Below, piece after piece: positions 24,014 to 31,912 of a DNA stretch of 64,000 bases. Position numbers and translations under genes: made by a program. The notes under the pieces are model-generated. The model did not search any database. It was given only the letters and a program-made list of their open reading frames with translations, and had not been told where the DNA came from. Source of the DNA: Gammaproteobacteria bacterium (lineage in GTDB: Bacteria > Pseudomonadota > Gammaproteobacteria > Pseudomonadales > JAUIET01); assembly GCA_030431775.1 (NCBI GenBank), contig JAUIHW010000004.1:124001-188000 (forward strand), written 5' to 3'. How positions within the stretch are numbered: position 1 is the first letter of the stretch; the number at the start of each line of letters is the position of its first letter.

Positions 24014-24614
24014 GCGTTTTTTCCTGCAACACCGTGGAGAACTGACTGGCCAGCTCTCCGGTAAAGTCGGCTAACAACTGATTCATCGCGTCGACGTAGG
24101 CCATATAGCTACGACCATTGGCCGACCGGACAAAGCGGCTGCGATTCATCAGCAGTTTATCGCGGCCACGATCCTCCGTTAAGGTCCACATCACCTCGAG
24201 CACCACTTCCCCTCCCAGCTCGCCGCTGAAGCGCTCTACTTCAAAGCGGAATTGATATTGCGGTCGCTGGCGTGTATCCCAGGGCTCAGGGTAAACCGCG
24301 TCCACCCCCAGCCGGCGCGCCAGCAAACTGGCACTGGTGCGGGTAAACATTTCATCAAAGTCACCCGCCCACAAATCGAAATCCGCTATGACCAAGCCAC
24401 TGTCACCACGCTCGCTGACCAGACCCGGCCGATCCAGCTCCGAGGGCAAATGAACCGGCCCTATGCCAATGCTGATGCCCGCGGGCAATGCCGAATCTGT
24501 GGTCTTGACAGAAATGGCCGTCAGACGATAAAACTCACTGGGCTGCTGGCTGGCACAGGCCAGCAGGCTGCCCAGTAAGACGATCAGTACCAGTCTGGGT
24601 ATGGCAAGGTTCAT
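24003..24614 (-). CDS. pqiC: PqiC/YmbA-type ABC transport auxiliary lipoprotein
   Basis: A 203-aa outer-membrane lipoprotein with lipobox LLAC (Cys about 20). It carries the PqiC features: FYRLTAISV near the N-terminus, IGIGPVHLPSELDRP, a WAGDFDEMFTR segment and a conserved helical C-terminus. PqiC forms an octameric ring on the outer membrane and caps the PqiB tube. It overlaps pqiB by four bases (ATGA) and shares 11 bases with the convergent LLM gene. Confidence 0.93.
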   Translation of the reverse strand: MNLAIPRLVLIVLLGSLLACASQQPSEFYRLTAISVKTTDSALPAGISIGIGPVHLPSELDRPGLVSERGDSGLVIADFDLWAGDFDEMFTRTSASLLARRLGVDAVYPEPWDTRQRPQYQFRFEVERFSGELGGEVVLEVMWTLTEDRGRDKLLMNRSRFVRSANGRSYMAYVDAMNQLLADFTGELASQFSTVLQEKTLSE

Positions 24615-26227
24615 TTTGGCTTCTTCCCTCGTATCAGCGAATCCGGATAACGTTGCAAATCATCGGTTAAGGCCTCCAGCGATTTGGCCGCATCACCCAC
24701 GTCATCCAGCATCTCGGTCAGCCGATGCTGCAAGGTGGAATCCGGCGCGACGACACTGTCAATGGATTCGATTGTTGACTGCAATCCATCAATCGCCTGG
24801 TCCAATGACTTCGCTGAGCCGTTCAGCCCGTTGAGAAGCTCATCCACATCATCGACAATTTTCGCCCGATTGATTTCGCTCACCATATCAGCCACACCCT
24901 TCAGACTGTTATTGAGGTTGTCACCGATGGATTCGAAGGGCAGCTCAGCAATTTTCTGTGCGATATCGGTTATCCGGCGGGCTATCTGCGAGTACTGACT
25001 ATCCGAGGTCGGCAGAAGCAGGTATTCTCCATGATGGTCCAGTGACTCAGGCCCACCAGCAGCCGCTTCTGCCAGTGAAGGGACCAGATCAACGTAGAGC
25101 GCCCCGGTCAGATAGCTGCGCGTTTTTAACTGGGCCCGCATACCCTCGGCGACCAGTGACGCGAACAAATCGTTCAGCTCGGCCAGCGTGGGTGCATCAT
25201 CCGGATCGATACGTTCCGGCTGGATGGACACAACCACGTCTATTTCCCGGTTATTGGATATTCCCGCTTCCAGACCAACATGTTCAACCTTGCCAACCTG
25301 TATTCCACGAAACTCTACCGGCGCTCCGACACTTAACCCCCTAACAGAGGAATTAAATTTCATCAGATAGGGGTAGGAATACGTGAGTGCACCTTCGGCT
25401 ACTGCTTCGCGGTCATCAAATAGGTGAAATTCCGCTCCCGGCTTCGCTATGTCGTGTTGCCTATCAATATCCGGTGGTGTGCTGAACGCCAGGCCACCGG
25501 CAATCACAGAGGACAGCGAATCGACCTGAGCGACAAGCCCATCCGACCCGAACTCAAAACCAAAACCACTGACATTCCAAAAGGTAGTGTTGGTTCGAAT
25601 CAGTTGATCGTAGGGTGAATTGATAAAAATCCTGATCTCAACTCGACCGATTTCAGGCAGCAGGCGATATCGGGTTACTTCCCCCACCGGCACCTGGCGG
25701 TGGAAAACAGGGGAACCAATATCGAGCGAAGCCAGTTCTTCGGAGAGCAATACATATTGGGTGCCCTGCTCATACGAACGCACCGGTGGCGGCTCAGTAA
25801 GGCCTTCGAAGCGGCGTTGACGAGCTCCGGGATCACCTGGATCCATTTCGATGTAAACTCCCGAGAGTAGCGTATCCAAACCGCTGACACCGCCCAGGGA
25901 TATTCTTGGCGAAACCACCCAGAATCGGCTGTTCTCAGAGAGCAAGGGTTCCACCTGCGGATCCATTTCGACAAATACGGTCACTTTCTCAAAGTTGGAG
26001 CTCAGCTTGGTGTCAACGACCTGACCGACGATTACATCACGAAAGCGTACCTGAGTCTGTCCTACGCGAATGCCCGCGGCACCGTCCAGCACAATTTGAA
26101 TCTCAGGCCCGCGTTCCTGCCAGGCGCGCAGCGCAAGCCAGCCGGCAATTAACAGCGCAAGAAGCGGAATAATCCAGATCGGCGATACCGTGCCAACTCG
26201 GCTGAGATGGGGGTGATTATCGTTCAA
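24611..26227 (-). CDS. pqiB: PqiB, MCE-domain intermembrane transport protein
   Basis: A 538-aa protein with one N-terminal membrane helix (about residues 15-32). Three MCE domains follow: beginning near residue 40 (GIRVGQTQVRFRDVIVG), near 160 (SLDIGSPVFHRQVPVGEV) and near 285 (LSVGAPVEFRGIQVGKV). A C-terminal helical needle with heptads comes after about 430. In E. coli, PqiB rings and needle form a hydrophobic tube across the periplasm for lipid traffic. Length matches the E. coli protein (546). It overlaps pqiA by four bases. Confidence 0.96.
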   Translation of the reverse strand: MNDNHPHLSRVGTVSPIWIIPLLALLIAGWLALRAWQERGPEIQIVLDGAAGIRVGQTQVRFRDVIVGQVVDTKLSSNFEKVTVFVEMDPQVEPLLSENSRFWVVSPRISLGGVSGLDTLLSGVYIEMDPGDPGARQRRFEGLTEPPPVRSYEQGTQYVLLSEELASLDIGSPVFHRQVPVGEVTRYRLLPEIGRVEIRIFINSPYDQLIRTNTTFWNVSGFGFEFGSDGLVAQVDSLSSVIAGGLAFSTPPDIDRQHDIAKPGAEFHLFDDREAVAEGALTYSYPYLMKFNSSVRGLSVGAPVEFRGIQVGKVEHVGLEAGISNNREIDVVVSIQPERIDPDDAPTLAELNDLFASLVAEGMRAQLKTRSYLTGALYVDLVPSLAEAAAGGPESLDHHGEYLLLPTSDSQYSQIARRITDIAQKIAELPFESIGDNLNNSLKGVADMVSEINRAKIVDDVDELLNGLNGSAKSLDQAIDGLQSTIESIDSVVAPDSTLQHRLTEMLDDVGDAAKSLEALTDDLQRYPDSLIRGKKPK

Positions 26228-27549
26228 GCAACCTCCGAAGATGCAGCATACGACTCTTTACTGGACGCATAGGCGTCCCAGATGAGTTTGGAATCAAAAG
26301 TTTCCGCTGCCAACATGGTGAGCACAACAACACCTGCAAAACACAGCAAAGCAGCACCGGGCTCGACATTGGCGAGCAAACCAAATTGCACAAGCGCGAC
26401 CAAAATACTGACAACAAACACATCGATCATTGACCAGCGACCAACAAACTCGGTCACCCGGAACATAATCGCTAGCTGCCGAGGTTCCCGGGTTCCGAGG
26501 TGGCTAACCGACAGGAGTAGATAGGCCATCACAATGAGCTTGGCCAATGGAATGACGATACTTGCAATAAAAATCAGCAGCGCAATGGGCAGGTCGCCGG
26601 CTTCAGCAAGGTGCAAGACACCAGAAAAAATCGTGTCTTCAACCGTATATCCCAGGTTGGTGGTGCGCATTATTGGCAGAATATTCGAGGGAATATACAG
26701 CAGCGCTGCAGCGATCAATAATGCCCAGGTTTTTTGCACGCTGCTTGGCCAGCGCCGGTGCACAGAGGTCCCGCAACGTGGGCACTGGGAGTCCAATTCA
26801 AGCAGACTGTCTCCGATTAATGCATCACAACAGCGACAGGCATTCAGATGCTCCCCAAGATCATTGGCATAATAATTGTCGGGGTCCAACCAGTCCCAGA
26901 TCTCCTCTCGATCAAGAAACAAATGACAGCTTATTAAAACCAGCACCAGTCCGAGGAATGCATATAACCCAGGCCCAGGTATCAGCAATGCCATACCAGC
27001 CAGTTTGATACTGGATACCAGCACTCCGATCAAAAATATCTCCAACATGCTCCAGGGGCGGGAAATATGCAGCAAATGCAAGACCTGACCGAGGAACGGG
27101 GCACGCACACCGGCGTAACGAAAGATCAACAAGTAAGCCAGCCCCATTAGCTCTAACAGCGGAAACAAAAATATTGTGATAAACACTAATGCCGCCAAAA
27201 TAAACTCTTCTCGCCCCAACAGCGCCTGAACACCACTGATCAGATTGCTGCTTTGTATCTGGCCAGCCTGCTCAAGCCCCAGGAATGGAAAACTGTTGGC
27301 CACCACAAATAGAACCAGACCGGTTGCCGTGAGAGCAGCCACTTTGGATTCCCAGTTACGATGTCTGGTCATGATCACGTTGCCACAGTGGACACACTCG
27401 AGTTGCTCCCCTGCGGCTACGTCAGGCAAGTTATACACATGCCCGCAGTCGTGGCAGGCAATCAGTTCTTTGTGGGTACGGATCACTCGGTTGAACCCGG
27501 TTTTATCATCATTAAAGCATAGCACGCAGAACAGCCGGGTTCTGCCCAC
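26224..27549 (-). CDS. pqiA: PqiA, inner-membrane partner of PqiB
   Basis: A protein of up to 441 aa with two PqiA domains of four membrane helices each. Each is preceded by a zinc-ribbon pair: CHDCGHVY with CVHCGN, and CRCCDAL with CPRCGTSVHRR. PqiA supplies the membrane base of the PqiABC lipid path. The true start is uncertain: a GTG at 27549 opens the frame, but family alignment suggests translation may begin at a later GTG (27483), just before the first zinc ribbon. No clear ribosome site distinguishes them. It is divergent from the D-amino acid operon. Confidence 0.9.
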   Translation of the reverse strand: MGRTRLFCVLCFNDDKTGFNRVIRTHKELIACHDCGHVYNLPDVAAGEQLECVHCGNVIMTRHRNWESKVAALTATGLVLFVVANSFPFLGLEQAGQIQSSNLISGVQALLGREEFILAALVFITIFLFPLLELMGLAYLLIFRYAGVRAPFLGQVLHLLHISRPWSMLEIFLIGVLVSSIKLAGMALLIPGPGLYAFLGLVLVLISCHLFLDREEIWDWLDPDNYYANDLGEHLNACRCCDALIGDSLLELDSQCPRCGTSVHRRWPSSVQKTWALLIAAALLYIPSNILPIMRTTNLGYTVEDTIFSGVLHLAEAGDLPIALLIFIASIVIPLAKLIVMAYLLLSVSHLGTREPRQLAIMFRVTEFVGRWSMIDVFVVSILVALVQFGLLANVEPGAALLCFAGVVVLTMLAAETFDSKLIWDAYASSKESYAASSEVA

Positions 27550-27586: not shown

Positions 27587-28387
27587 ATGAACAATACCAC
27601 CATGGAAATAGTGGAATCTGAAAGAATACGGCGACTGATCCGCAGAGGTGAATGGTCCCAAGCAACCTCCGGAGCAGCACCTGGCTACGTGCAATGCAAC
27701 CTCGCAATCTTGCAGTCCGACTGGGCTGCGGAGTTTCTCCGTTTTTGTCAGTTGAACCCCAAGCCCTGCCCATTAATTGCAATGTCAGAATCACCCGGTG
27801 ACTACCTGCTACCGACGCTTGGTAAAGATATCGACATCCGCTTTGATGTTCCGCGTTACCGGATCTGGCGAGATGGAGAATTGGTAGAGGAATGCGAACA
27901 AATTGATACGTTATGGTCCAACGACATGGTCGCTTTTCTGCTTGGCTGTTCATTTTCCTTTGAAGAAGCGTTGCTGGCAGACGGCCTTGAGATTCGCAAT
28001 ATCACTGAAGCATGTAACGTGCCCATGTACCGCACCAATATGCGCTGTGCAAAAGCTGGCCGGCTGGAGGCCGACATGGTTGTGAGCATGCGACCAATGA
28101 AAGCTGAACATGCCATTCGGGCTATTCAAATATGTACTCGCTTTCCGTCTGTACACGGAGCGCCCGTGCATCTTGGGGACCCGGCACTTATCGGTATTGC
28201 TGATATCAATCGTCCCGACTATGGCGACCGGGTGACGATACGGGCAGACGAATTACCAGTGTTTTGGGCCTGCGGTGTCACACCACAAGTAGCGATAGAG
28301 CGGGCTCGACCTGCTCTCAGCATCACCCACAGTCCGGGCTATATGTTGATATCCGACTTGCTGAACTCCAATCTGGCGGTGCTTTAA
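27587..28387 (+). CDS. DUF1445 (YcsI-like) protein, D-glutamate cyclase N-half homologue
   Basis: A 266-aa member of the UPF0317/DUF1445 family, annotated elsewhere as putative hydro-lyase and called YcsI in Bacillus subtilis. Family features are [52 protein letters not shown] and VVSMRPM. Near the end is [13 protein letters not shown]. In mitochondria this family is the N-terminal part of DGLUCY, a D-glutamate cyclase (D-glutamate to 5-oxo-D-proline). The C-terminal family of DGLUCY is encoded two genes downstream. The next gene starts three bases after this stop. ATG at 27587 or 27602; neither has a strong ribosome site. Confidence 0.88.
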
Positions 28388-28390
28388 ATC

Positions 28391-29116
28391 ATGAGATTGA
28401 ATTGCGATTTGGGTGAAAGCTATGGCAGCTGGCGCATGGGCATGGACGACCAGGTCATGCCGCACATTGATCAGGCAAACATCGCCTGCGGTTTTCATGC
28501 CGGCGACCCAGTCACAAAAATCAGAACCATCCAACTCGCAACTTCCCATGGTGTGGAAATCGGCGCTCACCCTTCTTACCCTGACCTGGTTGGCTTTGGA
28601 CGCCGTTCGATGCACTGCTCAAAGGAAGAGATTATTGCGCTGATTCAATATCAGGTGGCCGCATTGGACGGCTTATGTCGCACATACGGTGCAGAACTGA
28701 GTTATGTGAAACCACACGGAGCTTTGTACAACGACATGATGCGTGATGTTTCCGTACGCCGCGCCATTATGCAGGCCATAGGTCACTATGCCGCACCACT
28801 CAAGCTGATGCTACTGGCTACTCAAGAGTCAGATAAGCACGCCGAAGAAGCGGCCGAGTTCGGGCTTGAGCTACTCTATGAAGGGTTTGCCGACCGTTTG
28901 TACACCGACGCTGGAGCACTGCAAGCACGCAGTGAACCGAACGCCGTTCACGATGAGCATAAAACCATCGAGCAGGCAGTACAGATAGCAAGCAGCGGCA
29001 AAGTCACTACCGCCAGTGGAAATACCCTGGCCTTGCGCATTGACAGCCTCTGTGTGCACGGAGACAACCCGCATGCCGTTGAGGTGGTGCAAAAAATTCG
29101 CCAGAAACTGCAATGA
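28391..29116 (+). CDS. pxpA: 5-oxoprolinase subunit A (LamB/YcsF family)
   Basis: A 241-aa YcsF-family protein, the usual length. It shows the signature NCDLGESYG, ANIACGFHAGDP, EIGAHPSYPDLVGFGRR, and VKPHGALYND. With PxpB and PxpC, PxpA forms the ATP-dependent 5-oxoprolinase that opens 5-oxo-L-proline to L-glutamate. No pxpB or pxpC gene lies in the window. Here PxpA sits between the two halves of a putative D-glutamate cyclase; its stop overlaps the next start (ATGA). The role is therefore probably in 5-oxoproline handling, but whether it can act without PxpBC is unknown. Confidence 0.93.
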   Translation: MRLNCDLGESYGSWRMGMDDQVMPHIDQANIACGFHAGDPVTKIRTIQLATSHGVEIGAHPSYPDLVGFGRRSMHCSKEEIIALIQYQVAALDGLCRTYGAELSYVKPHGALYNDMMRDVSVRRAIMQAIGHYAAPLKLMLLATQESDKHAEEAAEFGLELLYEGFADRLYTDAGALQARSEPNAVHDEHKTIEQAVQIASSGKVTTASGNTLALRIDSLCVHGDNPHAVEVVQKIRQKLQ

Positions 29117-29976
29117 TCAGTGCCACCGACCTAGCGCTCAGCGGGCGCATCGAAGACCGGCTTGTCCGACGAAACCCACGCGGTATGCAGTATGTTCAGG
29201 CCGCGTTGGCACAGGGCTATTGTTTACGTGGCGCAGCGCTGATTTACCAGAACAAAGACCGAGTGTTGATAGGTACCGGCTTTCCGGTTGCCGGCAGCTT
29301 CGAAACCGATGGCCCAGTGGGTGCTATCGCACTTTATCAGGCACTTGAATCACTGGGCGGCAAACCAGCAATCGCCTGTGGATCACCGCTTTTTGAAGTG
29401 CTGCAACCTCACTATCGCTCACAGCGTCTGAAACTGCAAAAAGATGGTGCACAGCCCGCCGAGCGCAGTCGTGAGGCACAGGAAATTCTAGAGCGACAGC
29501 AGCCTACGGCTATTGTCTCCATTGAAAGGCCGGGCCTGTCGGCCAGTGGGCATTACTTCAATATGTTCAGCCAGGATATCAGTGACCACTGCGCCTGTTT
29601 CGACGAATGTTTTCGCCAGGCAAGCTGCCCAACCATCGCCATTGGCGATGGCGGCAATGAGATTGGTATGGGTAATGTACGCGATACGATTGCCAAACTT
29701 GATATTGAAGCATCGGCCACGCATTGCGATGAACTGCTGGTCGCAGATGTGTCAAATTGGGCCGCTTATGCCATCATCGCATTCTGGCAAAAGTGGTCTG
29801 GCAAACCATTGCTCGAACAGATTAATGTCCTTGATATCATGGAGTTTTTATCATCCAATGGCAGCGTGGATGGCACCACGGGAAAGAACACGCTGACCGA
29901 AGACGGCCTGCCGCTTGAAGAGGGTTTATCTCTGCTGGTGGATCTGACAGAGCTAATAAGCGAGGCTACTACTTAA
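29113..29976 (+). CDS. DUF4392 protein, D-glutamate cyclase C-half homologue
   Basis: A 287-aa protein of the DUF4392 family, which corresponds to the C-terminal half of mitochondrial DGLUCY. It has LIGTGFPVAGSFETDGP, an IVSIERPG segment followed by HYFNM, and the strongly conserved IGDGGNEIGMGNV. DGLUCY converts D-glutamate to 5-oxo-D-proline. Its neighbours, PxpA upstream and a D-amino acid aminotransferase downstream, fit this. It overlaps pxpA by four bases and the aminotransferase by one (TAATG). Confidence 0.9.
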   Translation: MISATDLALSGRIEDRLVRRNPRGMQYVQAALAQGYCLRGAALIYQNKDRVLIGTGFPVAGSFETDGPVGAIALYQALESLGGKPAIACGSPLFEVLQPHYRSQRLKLQKDGAQPAERSREAQEILERQQPTAIVSIERPGLSASGHYFNMFSQDISDHCACFDECFRQASCPTIAIGDGGNEIGMGNVRDTIAKLDIEASATHCDELLVADVSNWAAYAIIAFWQKWSGKPLLEQINVLDIMEFLSSNGSVDGTTGKNTLTEDGLPLEEGLSLLVDLTELISEATT

Positions 29977-30833
29977 TGACTATTGCGTTTCTTAACGGCG
30001 ATTATCTCCCACTAGAAGAGGCGAGGATCTCGCCTATGGACCGAGGCTTCCTTTTCGGTGATGGTATTTATGAAGTAATCCCTTCTTATGGGGGACGATT
30101 GGTGGGTTTTGCTCCACATATTGAACGGATGCACGATGGGATGAACGCAATTGAAATCCTGTCACCGCACAGCAACCAGCAATGGCGCGAGATTTGTGAA
30201 ACGCTTGCCCAACGAAACGGTGCCGGAAACCTTGGTATCTATCTTCAGGTCAGCCGGGGAGCTGACACAAAACGTCATCATGCCTACCCGACAGGCATTA
30301 CACCCACCGTGTTTGGCTTCACTTTTGACATTCCAGCTGAGCCCACAGCAGACCGCTCTAGCGCCAAAACTCTCAAGGTTGCCAGCGGGGAGGATAAACG
30401 CTGGCAACGCTGCAACATCAAATCAGTTGCCTTGCTGGGAAATGTCATGCACTTTCAGCAGGGTGCCGCCGACGGTAAGGATGAAATTTTGTTGTATAAC
30501 AAAGCCCACAACGTCACTGAAGGCGCGGCTTGCAATGTATTCATCGTTAAAGACGGTACGGTTATTACACCACCGCTGGACCATCAAATTCTGCCAGGCA
30601 TCACGCGGCACATCGCGCTGGACATATTGCACAAGTACAGCGATATCCCGGTTGAGGAACGCAGCGTATCGATGGAAGAAGCACGCCATGCTGACGAAAT
30701 CTGGTTCTCAAGTTCAACCAAAGAACTGATTGCGGTTGTTGAATTGGATGGCTCTCCTGTAGGAGATGGCCGGCCCGGCCCCGTCTGGGAGCAGGCTCAG
30801 ACGCTGTTCACTGAGCACAAATACGATTATTAA
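29976..30833 (+). CDS. D-amino acid aminotransferase (class IV)
   Basis: A 285-aa fold-type IV PLP aminotransferase. MDRGFLFGDGIYEV, the lysine segment RCNIKSVALLGNV (PLP Lys149), VTEGAACNVFIVKDG and ILPGITRHI match Bacillus D-amino acid transaminase more closely than branched-chain or chorismate-lyase members. The expected reaction is D-alanine plus 2-oxoglutarate to pyruvate plus D-glutamate. That would feed D-glutamate to the cyclase-like genes just upstream in the operon, or consume it in reverse. Start and stop overlap both neighbours by one base. Confidence 0.92.
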   Translation: MTIAFLNGDYLPLEEARISPMDRGFLFGDGIYEVIPSYGGRLVGFAPHIERMHDGMNAIEILSPHSNQQWREICETLAQRNGAGNLGIYLQVSRGADTKRHHAYPTGITPTVFGFTFDIPAEPTADRSSAKTLKVASGEDKRWQRCNIKSVALLGNVMHFQQGAADGKDEILLYNKAHNVTEGAACNVFIVKDGTVITPPLDHQILPGITRHIALDILHKYSDIPVEERSVSMEEARHADEIWFSSSTKELIAVVELDGSPVGDGRPGPVWEQAQTLFTEHKYDY

Positions 30834-31912
30834 TGCGTCCTTGCAGAGCAGACATTTCCAGAAGCGCGCTGCTGGCTAACCTGGCTTTGGCACGCTCTCT
30901 CGCCGGTCAGGCCAAGCTCACAGCGGTCGTCAAGGCCAATGCCTACGGTCATGGCGCCAGCCTCTGTGCGCGGCTTCTGGCGCCGGCGAGCGACCTGCTG
31001 GCCGTTGCCAGCATTGATGAAGCGCTGGAGTTGCGTGCTTCGGGAATCGACAAGCCGGTACTGTTGTTGGAGGGGCACTTTGAGGAAAGTGAATTGCGTA
31101 TCGCAGTTGAACATAATTTCTGGTTGATGCTGCACAACGAACGGCAATTAGCCGAAGCTATCGCATTTAAGCCCGACAGCAAACTGTGCGTCTGGCTAAA
31201 AGTGGATACCGGAATGCACCGGCTAGGCCTGCCACCGGAACAAGTGTCTGATGCCGTCCGGGCATTGCGGGCCAGCAAGCATATTGATGAGGAAATCGTG
31301 CTTGCCAGTCACTTCGCCTGCGCTGACCAGTGCGATCAAGAGCCAGCGCTCGCGCAAGTCAAGCGCTTTGATGAGATCAATCAGGCACTGGCGCTTCCGG
31401 TCAGCCTGGCCAATTCCCCGGCATTGCTTAGTCTTACCGGGGTTGCACGGGACTGGGTTCGTCCGGGCATTATGCTGTACGGCAGTTCGCCGCTTGAGCA
31501 AGCCAATCGCCATAGCGAACAGCTACAGGCGGTCATGGGCTTACATTCCGAGGTCATCGCGCTGCGGGAAATACCGCCGGGTGACGGGGTAGGCTATGGG
31601 CTGGCATGGCGAGCCGACCGCCATTCCAAAATTGCAACGGTCGCCGCCGGCTACGGAGACGGTTACCCCAGGCACGCGCCCAATGGCACACCGGTTCACG
31701 TCGGCGGACAAGCAGCGACCTTGGTTGGCAGGGTATCCATGGACATGATTTGTGTGGACGTCACCGATTGTCCGCAGGTTGCACTGGGTACTCCAGTTGA
31801 ATTGTGGGGTACCCAGGTATCTGTTGATGAGGTCGCCCGGCAGTCCGGCACCATCGCTTATGAGCTGCTCACCCGCATGCCAGCCCGGGTACCCCGCCGC
31901 CTGGTCGACTAA
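30833..31912 (+). CDS. alr: Alanine racemase
   Basis: A 359-aa PLP-dependent racemase that interconverts L- and D-alanine. The lysine motif AVVKANAYGHG (Lys34) and the catalytic tyrosine segment GDGVGYGLAW (Tyr255) are in place, and GYGDGYPR and GRVSMDMI follow. The length is typical. Its ATG overlaps the aminotransferase stop (TAATG), making it the last gene of the D-amino acid operon. It could serve either peptidoglycan D-alanine supply or the catabolism of D-alanine. It overlaps a convergent gene by four bases. Confidence 0.96.
   Translation: MRPCRADISRSALLANLALARSLAGQAKLTAVVKANAYGHGASLCARLLAPASDLLAVASIDEALELRASGIDKPVLLLEGHFEESELRIAVEHNFWLMLHNERQLAEAIAFKPDSKLCVWLKVDTGMHRLGLPPEQVSDAVRALRASKHIDEEIVLASHFACADQCDQEPALAQVKRFDEINQALALPVSLANSPALLSLTGVARDWVRPGIMLYGSSPLEQANRHSEQLQAVMGLHSEVIALREIPPGDGVGYGLAWRADRHSKIATVAAGYGDGYPRHAPNGTPVHVGGQAATLVGRVSMDMICVDVTDCPQVALGTPVELWGTQVSVDEVARQSGTIAYELLTRMPARVPRRLVD

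Follow-up and report, generated by a model that had tools for sequence, protein, structure and literature searches.

Why would a gammaproteobacterium keep genes for an alanine racemase, a probable D-amino acid aminotransferase, a 5-oxoprolinase subunit and two D-glutamate cyclase-type proteins side by side? The question is raised by a five-gene locus in a stretch of 64,000 nucleotides from a Gammaproteobacteria bacterium (contig JAUIHW010000004.1, positions 124,001 to 188,000 of the forward strand, GenBank assembly GCA_030431775.1), which we call the window. The locus is one version of a conserved operon with the gene order DUF1445-PxpA-PxpB-PxpC-DUF4392-Dat-Alr, where Dat denotes the aminotransferase and Alr the racemase. 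Comparison of sequences indicates that the operon is real and conserved; its chemistry is predicted. We give a probability of roughly one half to the reading that it serves both the supply and the return of D-glutamate in marine and related bacteria, most of which seem to have no glutamate racemase (MurI). Alr and Dat likely supply the D-glutamate of peptidoglycan in place of MurI, and the DUF1445 and DUF4392 proteins, by analogy with an animal enzyme, may plausibly act with 5-oxoprolinase to return surplus D-glutamate through 5-oxoproline.

The locus is compact. As the first-pass annotation of the window had stated, five plus-strand open reading frames (ORFs) occupy 27587-31912, all of them in frame from ATG to stop, with junctions of +3, -4, -1 and -1 bases:

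27587..28387, + strand: DUF1445 protein, 266 amino acids (PF07286 D-Glu_cyclase, formerly DUF1445; Pfam E 4e-64)
28391..29116, + strand: PxpA-type 5-oxoprolinase subunit (LamB/YcsF), 241 amino acids (PF03746 LamB_YcsF, E 1.8e-92)
29113..29976, + strand: DUF4392 protein, 287 amino acids (PF14336 GLUCM-like_C, formerly DUF4392; Pfam E 4e-63)
29976..30833, + strand: probable D-amino acid aminotransferase (Dat), class IV, 285 amino acids (PF01063 Aminotran_4, E 6.4e-49)
30833..31912, + strand: alanine racemase (Alr), 359 amino acids (Pfam Ala_racemase N-terminal domain 7e-63, C-terminal domain 2.5e-43)

The DUF1445 protein scores 400 bits with the NCBIfam equivalog NF003969, 'putative hydro-lyase' (cut-off 324). 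PxpA passes the cut-offs of two NCBIfam PxpA subfamilies (NF003816, 347.6 against 213; NF003814, 296.9 against 226) and has the solved relatives 2xu2, 1v6t, 2dfa and 1xw8, and Alr passes that of the NCBIfam alr equivalog (352.3 bits against 168). Dat falls below the curated NCBI cut-offs for D-amino-acid transaminase (252.6 against 320 for NF005209, 226 against 277.45 for TIGR01121), so its name is taken from its closest relatives. The NCBIfam models nearest to it are D-amino-acid transaminases, and each of the six best-matching solved chains carries the name of a D-amino acid or D-alanine aminotransferase. In an alignment with Bacillus DAT, the positions that we take to be the pyridoxal phosphate lysine and the R-x-H carboxylate trap match. 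The window protein is probably a D-amino acid aminotransferase.

Is this arrangement peculiar to one genome? Of 293 genomes belonging to the same taxonomic order, 39, the window's among them, have a DUF4392 match over the Pfam cut-off. The search gave 40 matches; omitting the window itself and the sub-cut-off match of G103 left 38 genomes, in which up to ~10 kb on either side of DUF4392 were read. The full seven-gene order is found in 29 of these 38 loci; two others (L061, L062) are cut by contig ends and seven lack at least one gene. Counted among the 29 is L042, whose Alr runs into a contig end and whose PxpC and DUF4392 form one ORF. Junctions are mostly overlaps or short gaps. At seven loci 0.9-1.3 kb separates DUF4392 from Dat, and in all four loci that were read this space holds a LysR-type gene (recognized by eye, with Pfam confirming the one tested), oppositely oriented in L057.

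The neighbourhood extends beyond the order. A scan of named genomes yielded 524 confirmed DUF4392 matches, and the best 80 were analysed, which makes these loci lean towards close relatives; some are apparently identical with order loci (L107 with G003, L119 with G280, and others) and were kept in the counts. All seven genes stand in order in 23 of the 80, the same order without Alr in 23, and DUF1445 through DUF4392 without Dat in the chain in 13, the remaining 21 being other variants or cut. Among these best 80 are records of Halieaceae, Porticoccaceae/SAR92, Oceanospirillaceae, Alteromonadaceae, Leucothrix and Thiothrix. A Pseudoalteromonas replicon carries DUF1445 ('putative hydro-lyase'), PxpA, DUF4392 and a class IV aminotransferase, which is the window order minus Alr. 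The gene order is thus not limited to this genome, and the neighbours in the window are not there by chance, since the same ones recur elsewhere; the link proposed at first pass between cyclase-type genes and those for Dat, Alr and 5-oxoprolinase is borne out. What had not been noticed is that PxpB and PxpC belong to the operon in other genomes. Both are absent from the locus in the window's genus, and the sister genome G003 has PxpA-DUF4392-Dat-Alr.

The main clue to the function of the operon, also beyond the first-pass annotation, is an enzyme that is missing. Most Gram-negative bacteria are reported to use MurI for D-glutamate, with DapF acting as glutamate racemase in Chlamydia (PMC5885031), and D-glutamate can also come from a D-amino acid aminotransferase (PMC8788868). 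In the window genome (G000, 98.3% complete) we found no match to the MurI model TIGR00067 at E <= 10, hence not even a weak one below the cut-off, and in G003, of the same genus, none at E <= 0.001. The genome has one MurD over cut-off, located between mraY and ftsW. It carries Asp192 and Lys360 at the positions of E. coli Asp182 and Lys348, and Lys329 at that of Lys319, and so keeps all three tested E. coli residues that are tied to the choice between D- and L-Glu; MurD2 is reported to have Glu and Arg at Asp182 and Lys348 (PMC8788868). With these residues the enzyme appears canonical and should use free D-glutamate, unlike MurD2. The MurD2/MurL system of Xanthomonas is likewise a gammaproteobacterial answer to a missing MurI, described as epimerising uridine diphosphate-bound L-Glu and as needing MurD2. 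We rejected it as the D-glutamate route here because the MurD of this genome is canonical; MurL itself was not searched for.

The absence of MurI is not restricted to this genus. With 'without MurI' meaning no match over the curated cut-off, MurI is present in 9 of the 39 order genomes with DUF4392 (30 without) and in 204 of the 254 that lack DUF4392 (50 without), giving a Fisher P of 3.6e-12, a value that relatedness inflates. The association persists when stratified by family (Cochran-Mantel-Haenszel chi-square 13.5, a value reached in 14 of 20,000 within-family shuffles). In named genomes with DUF4392, MurI is over cut-off in 13 of the 50 tested, those left out of the 80 being mostly short contigs of metagenome-assembled genomes (MAGs) and genomes already tested.

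Dat follows the same pattern. It is found in the locus of all 30 MurI-less DUF4392 genomes of the order, the window's included, and in 37 of 37 MurI-less named ones, where it lies near DUF4392 (within 6.5 kb, on either strand) in 31 and elsewhere in 6. In a hand-picked set of 44 genomes, most of which have no DUF4392, 18 of the 21 without MurI carry Dat, as against 4 of the 23 with MurI (two of these 23, G102 and G228, carry DUF4392). A Dat in this sample, or one lying elsewhere, was called at 34% identity or more; the next matches, at 24-30%, look like other class IV aminotransferases. Alr, for its part, is the only match to Ala_racemase_C (PF00842) in the window genome.

Since the genome has no MurI match and no second alanine racemase was found by that domain, the better reading of alr and dat is that they provide for peptidoglycan, and not, as had been proposed, that they open a dedicated 5-oxoproline route. 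The same two facts bear on whether the operon might instead be catabolic, degrading D-amino acids from peptidoglycan turnover or the surroundings by means of alr and dat. Some bacteria are reported to grow on D-glutamate (PMC6131576), and a LysR-type gene in some operons would suit such a role; a sole alanine racemase, however, should be needed for biosynthesis, and with MurI unmatched Dat is the likely source of D-glutamate. We regard scavenging as quite improbable. In our preferred reading, that of D-glutamate supply and return, the operon becomes more interesting than the first-pass annotation held, since an essential peptidoglycan enzyme tends to be missing where it occurs.

Some loci and genomes depart from these patterns. 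Three genomes (G039, G058, G075) have neither MurI over cut-off nor a Dat of at least 34% identity. At L236:7144-7725 and L237:2023-2583, in genomes of family f10 that have neither MurI over cut-off nor DUF4392, a phosphoribosyltransferase-like gene (by Pfam on L236) sits between pxpC and dat-alr, at the usual DUF4392 position. In four loci of Marinobacterium and Oceanobacter (L117, L125, L127, L151) the gene directly upstream of DUF1445 resembles alanine racemase, with 31-34% identity to the Alr queries.

What, then, could the other genes of the operon do? The animal D-glutamate cyclase, DGLUCY (human C14orf159, mouse 9030617O03Rik), is reported to join DUF1445 and DUF4392 in one protein and to convert D-glutamate to 5-oxo-D-proline (PMC5339696, PMC5132392). 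These reports support the Rosetta-stone link drawn at first pass. Both DGLUCY domains (PF07286, PF14336) are far over cut-off in the window, as separate genes, and the two never share an ORF in the 80 named loci. The window pair is a relative of DGLUCY, not a DGLUCY protein: the animal enzyme is a single chain whose two domains are the families of two window genes, whereas the DUF4392 gene of the window has PxpA, Dat and Alr as its neighbours. In relatives PxpB and PxpC join them, and in three loci PxpC and DUF4392 are fused. In a preprint the human cyclase appears in a table of proteins whose homologues in gut bacteria are split (PMC11580864).

For the DUF4392 protein, a structural model with a predicted local distance difference test (pLDDT) score of 95.0 superposes on TON_0340, a solved DUF4392 protein (Z 36.0, 1.8 A, 255 residues). 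The ligands E59, D61, E115, D157, E161 and D246 of TON_0340 align with E64, D66, E138, D179, E183 and D264 of the window protein, and these six acidic metal ligands are invariant in 19 sequences. The DUF4392 protein is thus the probable metal-dependent catalytic subunit. The DUF1445 model (pLDDT 90.3) matches 2pif with Z 34.0; a fold search at E <= 0.001 returned its own family (2pif, 3db9) and MJ0159 (3nek) only, the latter at Z 9.8 and 4.2 A over 168 residues, too weak for assigning chemistry. A distant DUF4392 subfamily, about 29% identical, is seen at L241:7929-8996 (Agrobacterium plasmid) and L242:7998-9011 (Alisedimentitalea plasmid). Its neighbours are a threonine/serine dehydratase and a RidA gene, with bhc (beta-hydroxyaspartate) genes a few kb on, or aminotransferases. 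Because these neighbours differ, the DUF4392 superfamily probably has other substrates too.

The connection between DUF4392 and 5-oxoprolinase is closer than adjacency. In 3 of the 80 named loci, PxpC and DUF4392 are encoded together in a single ORF of 590-607 amino acids that runs without interruption, and both Pfam domains in it are nearly complete. All three loci come from MAGs that bear the label Porticoccaceae or Cellvibrionales:

L119:8987-10807: PxpC-DUF4392 fusion
L163:7496-9268: PxpC-DUF4392 fusion
L175:9044-10813: PxpC-DUF4392 fusion

The fusions, and the joining of DUF1445 with DUF4392 in animals, argue for a shared substrate, and on this comparison of gene structures the cyclase and the 5-oxoprolinase are coupled.

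These elements can be assembled into a mechanism, in which we infer the substrates, the direction of flow and the D-to-L step. Alr would make D-alanine, and Dat would transfer its amino group to 2-oxoglutarate, yielding D-glutamate for MurD. Surplus D-glutamate would be cyclised to 5-oxoproline by DUF4392 with DUF1445, as the animal enzyme suggests, and 5-oxoprolinase (PxpABC in the full operon, PxpA alone in the window locus) would reopen it to glutamate, spending ATP. One way in and one way out would replace a reversible racemase. The route from L-alanine that was proposed at first pass fits this as far as 5-oxo-D-proline. Its final step, assigned to PxpA, is incomplete, because PxpA is one subunit of an ATP-dependent enzyme and does not complete that step alone. 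The stereochemistry also needs attention. PxpABC is known, from the accounts consulted, for 5-oxo-L-proline, and the product reported for the animal enzyme is 5-oxo-D-proline, so the last step calls for a hypothetical switch between enantiomers or for relaxed specificity. The pair of cyclase and 5-oxoprolinase makes sense if the D form turns into the L form between them, a step for which DUF1445 is a putative candidate.

Could the flow run the other way? DUF1445 or DUF4392 might epimerise 5-oxo-L-proline and PxpABC open it to D-glutamate, making the cluster an ATP-driven replacement of MurI. Such a biosynthetic detour would account for the association of DUF4392 with the absence of MurI and for the PxpC-DUF4392 fusion, and a one-way ATP-driven L-to-D conversion is described elsewhere, for MurL. 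Dat, however, would be superfluous, yet it is present in every MurI-less DUF4392 genome of both samples; the animal relative is reported to run from D-glutamate to 5-oxo-D-proline; and racemisation of 5-oxoproline is not known for any of the operon's proteins. We consider the detour distinctly unlikely.

A number of observations weigh against the supply-and-return reading itself, and several concern the return branch. Cyclisation to 5-oxoproline is favoured and reopening needs ATP, so that the two enzymes, if they shared a single enantiomer as substrate, would do nothing but consume ATP. The window operon encodes neither PxpB nor PxpC. The genome has one PxpB match, adjoining PxpC, on contig C117 (L072:7362-9019; the gene next to the pair is MBL-fold hydrolase-like by eye), and no pxpA was seen in the 18 kb read round this pair, a second PxpA elsewhere not having been searched for. 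The C117 proteins are 31.3-39.6% (PxpB) and 33.3-42.1% (PxpC) identical to their operon counterparts, which among themselves have median identities of 58.6% and 54.0%. We therefore doubt a simple relocation of pxpBC; even so, the pair may be a relocated copy that diverged, since identities among the operon proteins range down to 38.4% and 31.1%. In G003, moreover, DUF1445 is absent from the locus. The 50 order genomes with neither MurI nor DUF4392 imply that the return branch is dispensable, and the operon does not require the loss of MurI, as Dat is kept near DUF4392 in 12 of 13 named genomes with MurI and in 7 of 9 in the order. Finally, weak MurI matches below the cut-off occur in 17 MurI-less order genomes and in 23 of the 37 MurI-less named ones, at E 1e-30 to 5e-4 (that of G176 covers 40 residues at 8.5e-15); these may be other racemases or fragments.

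To the same side belong the findings that favour a simpler role, in which D-glutamate is still the product of Alr and Dat, PxpABC does no more than reopen spontaneously formed 5-oxoproline, and DUF1445 and DUF4392 have another function, for example as a phosphatase or a 5-oxoproline racemase. TON_0340 is reported to be a Mn-dependent phosphatase (PMC5339696, PMC5132392), a finding that counts against carrying the cyclase name over directly, and the next folds for the DUF4392 model are DHH phosphoesterases such as RecJ (Z 11.7), a likeness compatible with its metal chemistry but no proof. In G010, G051 and Neptunicella, pxpABC-dat-alr occurs without adjoining DUF1445 or DUF4392 genes, which leaves room for such a repair role. 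Against it speak the joining of DUF1445 and DUF4392 in the animal cyclase and that of DUF4392 and PxpC in three loci, and we think it unlikely.

The linkage of alr and dat to the 5-oxoproline genes could in principle reflect shared ancestry and no common pathway. In the Dat tree, all operon Dats, the window's included, fall with 11 further close relatives inside one 48-row group (support 100/99), so the operon Dats lie on one side of a strongly supported branch and their linkage may be inherited rather than repeatedly selected. Other families without MurI carry Dats of other tree groups (the root is arbitrary). Against mere co-location, the linkage spans several bacterial groups and survives many rearrangements, including an intervening LysR gene, the loss of pxpBC or DUF1445, and split clusters. 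This explanation is very improbable.

How does the operon compare with known systems? PxpA stands with PxpB and PxpC in the pxp operon of Bacillus subtilis and in pxpTABC of Corynebacterium glutamicum, as it does in the full operon here. The ycsI gene of the former is presumably a DUF1445 gene. The accounts consulted, however, describe those operons for the use of 5-oxo-L-proline and with a Mn importer, and name no DUF4392, Dat or Alr. Dat-based synthesis of D-glutamate is on record as an alternative to MurI (PMC8788868); in the present Gram-negative bacterium, by contrast, whose genome gives no MurI match, Dat lies beside the only Alr and beside genes of D-glutamate cyclase type. The open-access literature searched, mostly at abstract level, describes neither the operon nor its link to the loss of MurI, in keeping with the first-pass remark that no described bacterial operon is known to hold exactly this set.

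Upstream of the locus, at 24611-27549 on the minus strand, the window holds a pqiB-like gene (three MlaD domains) and a pqiA-like gene, divergent from the operon, whose first start codon lies ~40 bases from theirs. By eye, the sister genome (L052) has the same pqi-like genes at this place, facing pxpA there.

A more ambitious formulation can be offered tentatively, and we hold it to be rather doubtful: the operon may be an undescribed, widespread module of D-glutamate homeostasis, in which a metal-dependent cyclase physically coupled to an ATP-driven 5-oxoprolinase (and fused to PxpC in some species) would form a one-way enantiomer converter, with Alr and Dat replacing the essential glutamate racemase in many gammaproteobacteria. 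Glutamate racemase is reported as the usual Gram-negative source of D-glutamate (PMC5885031) and is pursued as a drug target. If such a role is real, a conserved stand-in for MurI in Halieaceae, SAR92-type Porticoccaceae, Oceanospirillales, Alteromonadales and Thiothrix-like bacteria (some of these groups assigned by genus name) would change the picture of that enzyme and would help to predict which bacteria are independent of it. It would also provide bacterial partners for the animal D-glutamate cyclase, and would suggest, in a form open to experiment, how the two domains of that enzyme share the work.

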